In this document: positions 6,670-20,767 of the stretch, piece by piece
How the letters are laid out: each line of letters begins with the position of its first letter
Position numbering within the stretch: position 1 is the first letter of the stretch
Translations under genes and position numbers: made by a program
The notes under the pieces: generated by a model
What the model saw: only the letters and a program-made list of their open reading frames with translations
The model's database searches: none
Told to the model about the DNA's origin: nothing
Virus record (IMG/VR): IMGVR_UViG_3300035698_018618
Coordinates: 1-20,767 of that record
DNA length: 20,767 nucleotides
From: a virus
Reading direction: 5' to 3' (one strand)

Positions 6670-7176
6670 ATGAAAAACATTTTAATTTTTACCCTATTTT
6701 GCCTATCTAGTTTTGCATCTTTTGCAGACAATGGGCCTGTAGGAAGATCCGTTTCACTGGATAATACTGGGGCTGTTCAATCAGGTTCAGAGGAAAAATG
6801 GTTTATAAACGTAGTTAATAGAGATGGTGCAAGTGCTGCTCTTGGAACTCTAATGTGCTTAGACCTAGTAGCAGATGACGGATATAGCGTTCTCACTTGC
6901 CCAGTTACAGCTGGTGGGTTACCTGTTTGTTTTCTAGCAGAGGCTTGTGCTGATGATGCTGTTTGTAAGTGCCAAACTTATGGCGCGTTTGCTAGCTCAA
7001 TCTTTTCTAATCAAGGTGGCCCAGCAGTTGCAGGACAACCAGTTTATCTATCTGAAGATATTGCGGGCAATGTAATTGCTAATTCAAGTGCGGGCGGGGG
7101 AGATAATCCAGTTGCAGTTGCATATGATGCTGCGTCAGCAAGTGGAACACTTCAAGTGTTTATCAAACTAAGATAA
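6670..7176 (+). CDS. Secreted Cys-rich, capsid-decoration-like protein
   Basis: This 168-residue protein begins with a textbook Sec signal peptide: MKN, hydrophobic core ILIFTLFCLSSF, then SFA/D with cleavage likely after A19. The mature part is small-residue rich, probably beta, and has six cysteines (63, 77, 87, 93, 99, 101), an even number that suits disulfides. The pattern of the last half (GQPVYLSEDIAGNV, then PVAVAYDAASASGTLQVFI) recalls small phage head-decoration proteins encoded just after the coat gene. RBS AAGGAT. Its stop overlaps the ATG of the membrane-enzyme gene downstream (TAATG), so the two are probably coupled. A signal peptide on a virion protein is odd. It may instead be a periplasmic or surface protein, or the substrate of its neighbour. 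Confidence 0.65.
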   Translation: MKNILIFTLFCLSSFASFADNGPVGRSVSLDNTGAVQSGSEEKWFINVVNRDGASAALGTLMCLDLVADDGYSVLTCPVTAGGLPVCFLAEACADDAVCKCQTYGAFASSIFSNQGGPAVAGQPVYLSEDIAGNVIANSSAGGGDNPVAVAYDAASASGTLQVFIKLR

Positions 7177-8318
7177 TGCAAAGCTTAATACTTTGGGGGG
7201 TGTTTTTAACACTCCCCTTTATAACTAAAGTAAGTGGTGTTTTTGGGGGTAGTTTCGCCGCCGAATATGTTACGTTCGCAAAACAAGTTAGCGGAATGGA
7301 TCTAACTAGAATAGGAAGAGATTTCTATTTTATAATGCTATTTGTTTTAATGTTTATAAATTTTGAAAAAATAAATCAACTACCTAAAAAAATAAAATAT
7401 ATATTTAGCTACCTTTGTATTTCATCTTTCTTAGTTCAATTTGATTTCATGCTACCTAAAGTTTTTTATCAGTTTATTATGTTTTCAATTGGTGTTGGGT
7501 TTTTTGTATCCCTATACTCAACCCTAAATGAAAAAGTAATAAACAGAATATCCCTCATAATTTATTTATCTGGTGCTGTCGCTTCAATCGCTGTTATTTT
7601 AGAGAAATATGGGTTTGAGTATAAACAACTTCAGATGATGTTTTTTGGAGCCAAGAGCATGGCCTTAGAGCATCATAGCGAGATAGTTGGTGTGTTAGGG
7701 CAAGCGAGTCTAAGCGCGACTTACATAGCTCTCTGTGCGCCTTGTGCTTTGAAAAATAAAAGATGGTTGTTGTTACCTCTATTTATGGTGGCGATAGTTA
7801 TACTCAAAAGCTATATGGGTGCTATCTGTTTAGTTGCTGCAATTTGTTATTATATTTCAACTAGAAAAATTAAACCTGTTTTTATTTACATGGCTTCTGT
7901 AATTGGGATGGTTAGTATTTATTTTACAGGGCTTAATGGTTTAGACACGAGAAGATTCTCAATTTGGGAAAAATCTTTTGATACATTTCTAAGTTTTGAT
8001 CTTTTTGGCAATGGCCTTGGTTGGGCCGGTGTAATGTTACCTTTTTATTATGGCAAAGAACGCGCAGGAATATATGTAACAAACTTTCATAATGATTTTT
8101 TAAGTATATATGCAACATTTGGAGCTATTGGGTTGGTTTTGTTAATTGTCCTATTGAAAAATTCTATTTGTTTAAACAAAGAAATATCAGCAGGGGTATT
8201 TTGCTCATTTGTGGCCATGTATGGGAATTTTCCACTTTATATTGTGAGTACTTTTGTATTAGTGGCGTTCTATTTTGCCGCAGGAATTTATTTGAAAAAT
8301 CGGGAGATATATGGCTAG
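7176..8318 (+). CDS. O-antigen ligase/polymerase-like membrane enzyme
   Basis: A 380-residue protein with about ten hydrophobic segments, to be placed in the inner membrane. The C-terminal half has the order of PF04932 (Wzy_C) proteins: GVLGQASLSATYIAL (about 172-186), SYMGAICLVAA, then a hydrophilic loop with RR..IW (259-264), FGNGLGW (277-283), NFHNDFLSIYATFGAIGL (303-320) and final membrane helices. This family joins lipid-linked glycans: O-antigen polymerase, O-antigen ligase, or protein O-oligosaccharyltransferase (PglL/PilO type), with catalysis on the periplasmic side. Sequence alone does not separate these three. It sits between capsid and tail genes, coupled upstream by TAATG and overlapping the adaptor gene by 8 bases, so it is probably expressed late with the virion genes. 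Upstream RBS is weak. Confidence 0.8.
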   Translation: MQSLILWGVFLTLPFITKVSGVFGGSFAAEYVTFAKQVSGMDLTRIGRDFYFIMLFVLMFINFEKINQLPKKIKYIFSYLCISSFLVQFDFMLPKVFYQFIMFSIGVGFFVSLYSTLNEKVINRISLIIYLSGAVASIAVILEKYGFEYKQLQMMFFGAKSMALEHHSEIVGVLGQASLSATYIALCAPCALKNKRWLLLPLFMVAIVILKSYMGAICLVAAICYYISTRKIKPVFIYMASVIGMVSIYFTGLNGLDTRRFSIWEKSFDTFLSFDLFGNGLGWAGVMLPFYYGKERAGIYVTNFHNDFLSIYATFGAIGLVLLIVLLKNSICLNKEISAGVFCSFVAMYGNFPLYIVSTFVLVAFYFAAGIYLKNREIYG

Positions 8319-19980: not shown

Positions 19981-20295
19981 ATGAAAAAATTTAATAACAA
20001 AACTATTAGTGTTTTTGGAAAGAAATTTAAGCTTAGATATAAGCCTGTCGTTGAATATGAAGGAAAAGAAGTTTACGGAACTTGCGATCATGAATTAAGT
20101 GAAATTGAGATATCTCTTGGATACGAAAGCAAAGACAGGATCGTTGAAACAATAATACATGAAATGGGACACGCTCTTTTTGAGAGAATAGGCATACACC
20201 ATAGCGAAGCGATCACTCATGAACTAGAGGAAATTATAGTTGATTCTTATGCTAAAATGATTAGTGAGAGTTTTAACATTGAGTGGAGAAAGTAA
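19981..20295 (+). CDS. Small zinc metallopeptidase-like protein (HEMGH)
   Basis: A 104-residue protein with HExxH at residues 60-64 (IIHEMGHALFERIG) and downstream glutamates (ELEEII, 81-84) that can give the third zinc ligand. The N-terminus is a short beta-rich segment. Size and motif resemble the minimal metallopeptidase domains in phages (SprT-like or ImmA-like folds). The substrate is unknown; such proteins are often near phage DNA-metabolism genes. RBS AGGA six bases before ATG. Only five bases after the exonuclease gene, so co-transcribed. Confidence 0.75.
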   Translation: MKKFNNKTISVFGKKFKLRYKPVVEYEGKEVYGTCDHELSEIEISLGYESKDRIVETIIHEMGHALFERIGIHHSEAITHELEEIIVDSYAKMISESFNIEWRK

Positions 20296-20332: not shown

Positions 20333-20476
20333 TTACTGTGATAGCCTTGCGACATAGCATCTCGCTTCGGTATCGACACATATCTGCTGACTATCTGTCA
20401 AAACACAATCAATTGAGTTATCGGGTATTGACTTCATTAATTCTAAACAATCGCCATGTAGTAAATTTATTTCCAC
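20333..20476 (-). pseudogene. N-terminal fragment of an adenine DNA methyltransferase
   Basis: A 47-codon minus-strand ORF with GTG start and strong AAGGAG RBS. Residues 1-28 (from VEINLLHGDCLELMK to SIPDNSIDCVLTD) match the usual N-terminus of N6-adenine DNA methyltransferases leading to motif IV (DPPY). After the Asp the sequence changes to SQQICVDTEARCYVARLSQ and stops, so the PPY part, and everything after it, is missing. No frame downstream continues the methyltransferase. It looks like the remnant of a broken gene or a shuffled N-terminus joined to another small coding stretch. The intact RBS means a short peptide may still be made. Confidence 0.55.
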
Positions 20477-20508
20477 GCACTTCTCCTTAGTTTAGTGTTT
20501 TGTTAATA

Positions 20509-20652
20509 AGACCAAGACCAAGACCTAGACCCAGACCAAGACCTAGACCCAGACCCAGACCCAGACCTAGACCTAGACCTAGACCTAGACCCAGACCAAG
20601 ACCCAGACCCAGACCCAGACCTAGACCCAGACCAAGACCCAGACCCAGACCT
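20509..20652. repeat. Tandem hexamer array (AGACCN) x24
   Basis: Twenty-four perfect six-base units, AGACC plus one variable base, without any other change. The variable base is A five times, T eight times, C eleven times and never G. In the + strand frame AGA-CCN it encodes Arg-Pro throughout; on the minus strand GGT-CTN it encodes Gly-Leu throughout, so all variation is silent in both frames. The order T-C-A recurs at units 3-5, 13-15 and 19-21, which suggests growth by segment duplication. Possible roles: a length-variable coding tail, a slippage switch, or a structural site. Confidence 0.95.
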
Positions 20653-20678
20653 AACCCATTTTTGCCTTTTTCCTCTAA

Positions 20679-20767
20679 TCATTTTAATACACCAAAAGAC
20701 TCTATACAGTTCATAGCTATATAAAACTCTTCAACACATAAAGATTGTTCATCTTTATAGCTTTTAT
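20679..20767 (-). CDS. 3' end of a minus-strand gene (unknown)
   Basis: The minus-strand frame reads KSYKDEQSLCVEEFYIAMNC, then IESFGVLK and TGA; it is open to the window edge, with 28 residues visible. The balanced composition looks like coding sequence, though this is short. In the same frame, just after the TGA, the sequence continues LEEKGKNG into 24 Leu-Gly units from the hexamer array, then LINKTLN and a TAA that overlaps the RBS of the methyltransferase-like ORF. No function can be assigned. Confidence 0.4.
   Translation of the reverse strand, partial: KSYKDEQSLCVEEFYIAMNCIESFGVLK

Follow-up and report, generated by a model that had tools for sequence, protein, structure and literature searches.

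A hexamer array in a phage contig reads as a shuffled (Gly/Arg/Trp)-Ser gene behind a gene for a predicted Sm-like protein

The 20,767-bp phage contig IMGVR_UViG_3300035698_018618 from IMG/VR, which we analysed over its full length (the window), carries close to one end a tandem array of 24 hexamers. We propose that this array forms the main part of a short gene for a low-complexity phage protein, that the gene is the second in a two-gene module, and that its product is the partner of an RNA-binding ring of Sm-like proteins, a reading to which we give roughly even odds (about 0.5). The coding frame, the two-gene arrangement, a predicted fold for the product of the upstream gene, a peptide that is kept regardless of codon and the turnover of its order all come from the present analysis.

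The array lies on the minus strand at positions 20509–20652, where each unit reads AGACC[A/T/C] on the plus strand and NGG-TCT, or [Gly/Arg/Trp]-Ser, on the coding strand in the frame inferred from relatives. A direct reading of the letters agrees with a preliminary description of the window, which had noted 24 hexamers with five invariant positions and A, T or C at the sixth; the order of the sixth base across these perfect units is AATCATCCCTTTTCACCCTCACCT (C 11, T 8, A 5, G 0). The array scores 202 in Tandem Repeats Finder, against 41 for the runner-up in the window, and is the only one of the AGACCN type in the record. The preliminary description had called arrays of this type rare in phages, a view that did not survive a scan of viral contigs for five AGACCN units, which yielded at least 119 stretches and supplied the relatives used below.

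These relatives indicate which frame is translated. Among the matches listed, 74 arrays (the window included) had three or more unit types and at least part of their upstream sequence. In 68 of them the NGG-TCT frame has an ATG no more than 90 nt before the array, compared with 5 and 7 arrays for the remaining frames. Stop codons are distributed in the same way, with a stop at most four codons past the array in 65 of 76 cases for the NGG-TCT frame (median 1) versus 15 of 75 and 29 of 75 for the others (medians 12 and 8). Judged by these comparisons, the minus-strand NGG-TCT frame is the coding frame. In the window it gives a 59-aa open reading frame (MIRGKRQKWVRSGSGSWSGSRSGSGSGSWSGSRSRSRSRSGSGSGSRSWSGSRSWSWSY; 20503–20682, minus strand) with a basic head, an (X-Ser)n body and a TAA stop directly after the array, an architecture shared with relatives, and the ATG of these 59 codons overlaps the TGA of the upstream gene (ATGA).

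With this frame coding, changes at the sixth position all alter the amino acid. The preliminary description had called them codon-silent, which is correct arithmetic for the frames AGA-CCN and GGT-CTN, but neither is supported as coding by the relatives, and the corresponding (Arg-Pro)n and (Gly-Leu)n products find no support in the positions of starts and stops. Its suggestion of selection on a repeat product stands in part, in that the array is coding, with ([Gly/Arg/Trp]-Ser)n as the product, and appears to be under selection at the protein level. It was also right that simple slippage followed by random drift fails to account for variation limited to one position, although variation elsewhere, which it had taken as contrary evidence, does occur in relatives, where ~15% of units are changed at other positions and some arrays are built on another Ser codon throughout. 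A length switch driven by slippage is ruled out as a frameshifting on/off device, as a 6-bp unit retains the frame. The simplest explanation for the lack of G on the plus strand, which is C on the coding strand, is that Arg is encoded by both AGG and CGG, of which most arrays lack one. Avoidance of BsaI sites, considered because the window array lacks GAGACC, was rejected, as other arrays do have C at this coding-strand position.

The upstream gene, hereafter gene 1, is cut by the contig end, leaving a 28-aa C-terminal fragment (KSYKDEQSLCVEEFYIAMNCIESFGVLK; 20679–20765, minus strand). Its stop codon, TGA, overlaps the start of the repeat gene (gene 2), and the fragment matches the profile of a family we call A with E=3e-6. 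Family A proteins are about 87 aa long with the pattern ...NYIYTGKLVGVN.TCV.LEDA.IVYETG...AIESFG.LK, and a second family, B (...IRTVTM..G.L..V......ASWVADTGRF...), is homologous to them by profile comparison (hhalign E 1e-9). In one collection of viral contigs we found at least 317 relatives in family A and at least 277 in family B. Starting from gene 1 and counting any period-6 array, with no codon assumed, an array lies no more than 500 nt downstream in 72 of 80 cases for family A and 73 of 76 for family B; upstream of family A genes it does so in 4 of 80. Conversely, 56 of the 78 relatives whose TCT arrays are mixed carry gene 1, on the same strand every time, and gene 1 accompanies 78 of 116 arrays with three or more unit types versus 8 of 411 with fewer (five pattern classes; Fisher p 3e-54).

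The hexamers next to gene 1 combine NGG with TCT, TCG, TCA, AGC or AGT, all of them Ser codons, apart from a few odd units; the hexamer varies between phages and is near-uniform inside any one array. TCC, the sixth Ser codon, was predicted beforehand and then found in 16 mixed arrays, 10 of them with gene 1. Control searches with Thr and Ala codons returned few mixed arrays: 2 of 54 for Thr, both beside gene 1 and encoding (G/R/W-Thr)n, and 4 of 120 for Ala, one beside gene 1 and encoding (G/R/W-Ala)n. Where checked, the mixed Thr and Ala arrays retain G/R/W. Because the same peptide is encoded by differing hexamers, what is conserved across these genomes is the peptide pattern, independently of codon, and not the DNA hexamer.

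Gene 1 itself is predicted to have an Sm/LSm fold, which for the truncated copy in the window is taken from its relatives. The AlphaFold model (pLDDT 86.6) shows the N-terminal helix and five-stranded barrel that define this fold (helix at residues 14–17; strands at 22–27, 30–39, 43–52, 73–76 and 82–84), and in a Foldseek comparison with the PDB all 50 listed matches are Sm/LSm-type chains, with E down to 1.6e-4; the VIA Z values are 9.6–10.5. The family B model falls in the same fold class with a weaker best E of 2.4e-3. Membership of DUF6948, to which fold matches in BFVD had pointed, was rejected when scanning the members against Pfam yielded no hit. By sequence, neither gene of the module matches a known family in the libraries used. 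The gene 1 family is undescribed; a search of the open-licence literature found no paper on DUF6948 or on a protein of this kind. For a cyanophage, the crystal structure of an Sm-like protein has reportedly been determined.

The repeat keeps its composition and loses its order. The array sets used for these figures were picked with a pattern biased towards G/R/W and S, unlike the sets used for the frame, period-6 and codon tests. In 204 distinct arrays, X is Gly in 31.5%, Arg in 29.6% and Trp in 28.6% of units, and all three are present in 191 arrays. A single Ser codon is used throughout in 139 of the 204, and most take their Arg from AGG alone or CGG alone. Across the 6,364 units of 261 arrays, X is ordered almost as in a random shuffle at lags 1–15, and the shares of X per array are dispersed barely more than multinomial sampling would give. 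The similarity of X order is near chance even between loci whose gene 1 copies are 93–100% identical in nucleotide sequence, and length can differ despite near-identical gene 1 (24 versus 10 units in L133 and L134). The close relatives L181 and L185 are separated by a block duplication. The best account of these patterns is a fast turnover of arrays by recombination and a putative process of homogenisation, combined with selection for a mixed composition.

Some loci depart from the simple layout. Several tandem (X-Ser)n reading frames with similar heads occur within one phage in L117, L090, L047, L068 and L137, as if the gene had been duplicated. L162 encodes a Tyr-rich tail (YSRSGSYSRS...) from the unit CTCGNG about 135–290 nt downstream of a family A gene 1, and in L081 and L200, also beside a family A gene 1, blocks of ECWSGS are repeated in the tail, giving regularly placed Cys.

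Based on these observations, we propose that the gene 2 product consists of a head of ~9 residues followed by ~20–30 X-Ser dipeptides, in which Gly, Arg and Trp are roughly equal and shuffled, and that it is probably disordered. The gene 1 protein would build an RNA-binding ring like those of Sm proteins and Hfq, the gene 2 head would bind this ring, and the Arg- and Trp-rich Ser/Gly tail would contribute many weak contacts to RNA and protein. The composition of the tail rather than its order would matter, with arrays turning over fast and being homogenised to one codon set while selection maintains the Gly/Arg/Trp mixture. At 61 of 192 distinct loci the start of gene 2 overlaps the stop of gene 1 (ATGA/GTGA), and at 82 more it comes no more than ~30 nt after that stop, a spacing that suggests coupled translation. 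The net charge of the head is +3.3 next to family A and +0.6 next to family B (p 3e-8, uncorrected for relatedness), a difference that fits, without proving, the docking of each head on its own Sm-like partner.

The tail may thus be a detached counterpart, acting in infection, to the disordered tails that Hfq, Borg Sm proteins and eukaryotic Sm/LSm proteins carry. The closest precedent by analogy is provided by the Sm proteins of Borg elements, 5 of 19 of which have repeat-derived disordered N-termini (PMC9879509). Both cases pair an Sm fold with a fast-evolving in-frame DNA repeat for a predicted disordered region on an extrachromosomal element. They differ in that the Borg repeat is fused to the Sm N-terminus and has units of 4–17 residues, whereas the phage repeat is a separate downstream gene with a two-residue unit, one residue of which varies near-randomly among three kinds. 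Measured against the amino-acid tandem repeats (aaTR) of Borgs, the phage array is likewise an in-frame tandem DNA repeat, of 6-bp units spanning two codons, and, at the loci examined, lacks the fusion with Sm in the same chain. Hfq also combines an Sm-fold core with a disordered segment, and this tail may tune Hfq action (PMC5606850); there the tail belongs to the same chain, while the phage tail is separate and gene 1 has no detectable sequence similarity to Hfq.

Among eukaryotic proteins, SmD and LSm4 have disordered RG tails rich in Arg and Gly. Gene 1 shares the predicted fold of eukaryotic and archaeal Sm/LSm proteins without a match at the sequence level, and the phage tail differs from theirs in being separate, Ser-alternating and Trp-rich. 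Nor is it an SR/RS domain made mainly of Arg-Ser dipeptides, as Arg accounts for ~30% of X and Gly and Trp are equally common. Simple-sequence contingency loci likewise contain a coding short tandem repeat of changing length; the phage unit of 6 bp is divisible by three, so that the frame is kept and no on/off switch results.

Several observations weigh against a ring-and-tail partnership. Gene 1 has no significant sequence match in Pfam, PHROGs (none better than E 0.01) or the PDB, which leaves it without a hit to a family profile carrying the Sm1/Sm2 motifs, and hhalign found no match to E. coli Hfq, so RNA binding is predicted from the modelled fold. The two proteins are not fused at any of the loci examined. 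Gene 1 is missing from the fetched stretch at 22 mixed TCT loci, many of which are fragments, and since the relatives are phylogenetically non-independent, all p-values given here are nominal. Identical neighbouring units are slightly depleted (z -3.4) where single-unit slippage predicts enrichment, which excludes such slippage as the chief source of order. Finally, synonymous changes (TCT to TCN, GGG to GGA, AGG to CGG) are far rarer than changes of N; simple selection at the protein level predicts that they should be common, and their rarity is therefore unexplained by protein selection alone.

It is also possible, though we consider it unlikely, that the same module encodes an (X-Ser)n protein that acts alone, as a cationic peptide that contains Trp and is toxic or active on membranes. 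It might aid lysis, inhibit competitors or be a toxin for which the Sm-like protein is the partner or antitoxin. Arg and Trp together make up about 60% of X, the order seems unimportant, the heads next to family A are basic, and toxin-antitoxin loci are typically small overlapping gene pairs. However, half of all residues are Ser, most heads contain no hydrophobic stretch evident by eye (no signal-peptide predictor was used), the heads next to family B are not basic, and the partner has a predicted Sm-type fold. We would give similarly modest weight to a stronger form of our proposal, in which the amino-acid order itself is kept random: a G/R/W copolymer alternating with Ser would be randomised anew at a higher rate than neutral synonymous sites change, through a process free of reverse transcriptase or through diversifying selection, and would work with the Sm-like ring as an RNA-protein assembly in infection.

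Slightly less probable still is a diversity generator that targets the base before GG and re-randomises the array, the module serving to display variable tails. The near-random order, near-equal thirds and near-multinomial dispersion would suit such a device, as would the saturation of non-synonymous variation against rare synonymous change, and diversity-generating retroelements similarly focus variation on one position of a short unit. Yet a reverse transcriptase (PF00078, E 1e-3) was detected in none of 30 records, the window among them, some of which may be incomplete; the A of NGGTCA and NGGAGC arrays stays fixed while N varies, which excludes adenine-directed mutagenesis; and a block duplication is seen between L181 and L185. 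On the first two grounds we rejected a diversity-generating retroelement as the source.

We think it improbable that the repeat transcript is itself functional and bound by the Sm-like protein. The Sm-like neighbour does hint at RNA and the transcript likely includes the repeat, but the RNA unit shifts from UCU to UCG, UCA, AGC or AGU between phages with Ser constant, and the repeat matches no RNA family in Rfam. An ordinary microsatellite, with an incidental open frame and position behind gene 1 and any selection acting on the DNA (absence of GAGACC/BsaI-type sites, a protein-binding array), could be argued from 27 homogeneous single-type AGACCN loci without gene 1 and from the lack of plus-strand G in the window, but is already largely refuted by the NGG-TCG, NGG-AGC and NGG-TCA relatives that encode the same peptide at the same place, by the many arrays with coding-strand N=C, and by starts and stops fitted to a single frame.

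Elsewhere, the contig encodes a P22-type portal, an SU10-type major capsid protein and an NlpC/P60 protein. Directly after the repeat gene, at 20333–20476 on the minus strand, an open reading frame begins like a DNA methyltransferase (VEINLLHGDCLELMKSIPDNSIDCVLTD..., recognised by eye) and continues into an unrelated tail and a stop; it looks like a truncated remnant. Within the structural gene region, a membrane protein at 7176–8318 (plus strand) matches the O-antigen ligase family Wzy_C (Pfam E 2e-8) and possibly alters host surface polysaccharide. A small protein with an HEMGH motif at 19981–20295 (plus strand) is weakly SprT-like (E 4e-4, under the curated cut-off). The neighbours of the module are diverse, ruling out a conserved third gene; in L011 and L185, GDARVSGNAQVSG-type repeat proteins lie downstream near the module.

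Among 50,697 named phage records, family A occurs in one, the circular MW202825.1 from Manatee Spring, in which both module genes are unannotated; family B also occurs in one named phage record. We found no family A member in plasmids and one in about 85,000 species genomes, a Patescibacteria metagenome bin whose contig may be viral. Many of the relatives are metagenome fragments, and arrays are prone to mis-assembly, with several contigs ending within them; those of L151, L160 and L169 end inside or beside the array, which suggests that assembly frequently fails at these repeats and that counts of the module are too low. The unit number in the window could itself have been altered by short-read assembly. 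That the array as a whole is an assembly artefact, a concern raised in the preliminary description, is unlikely, as many independent contigs, and the circular MW202825.1, show the same gene-plus-array layout.

The module thus appears widespread in uncultured phages and has been overlooked by the family libraries and annotations used here. It couples phages with Sm-fold proteins, which are mostly discussed as cellular RNA chaperones. Its hundreds of arrays, with composition kept and order changed, amount to a natural experiment on disordered proteins, through which the question of whether composition alone specifies function becomes directly testable.
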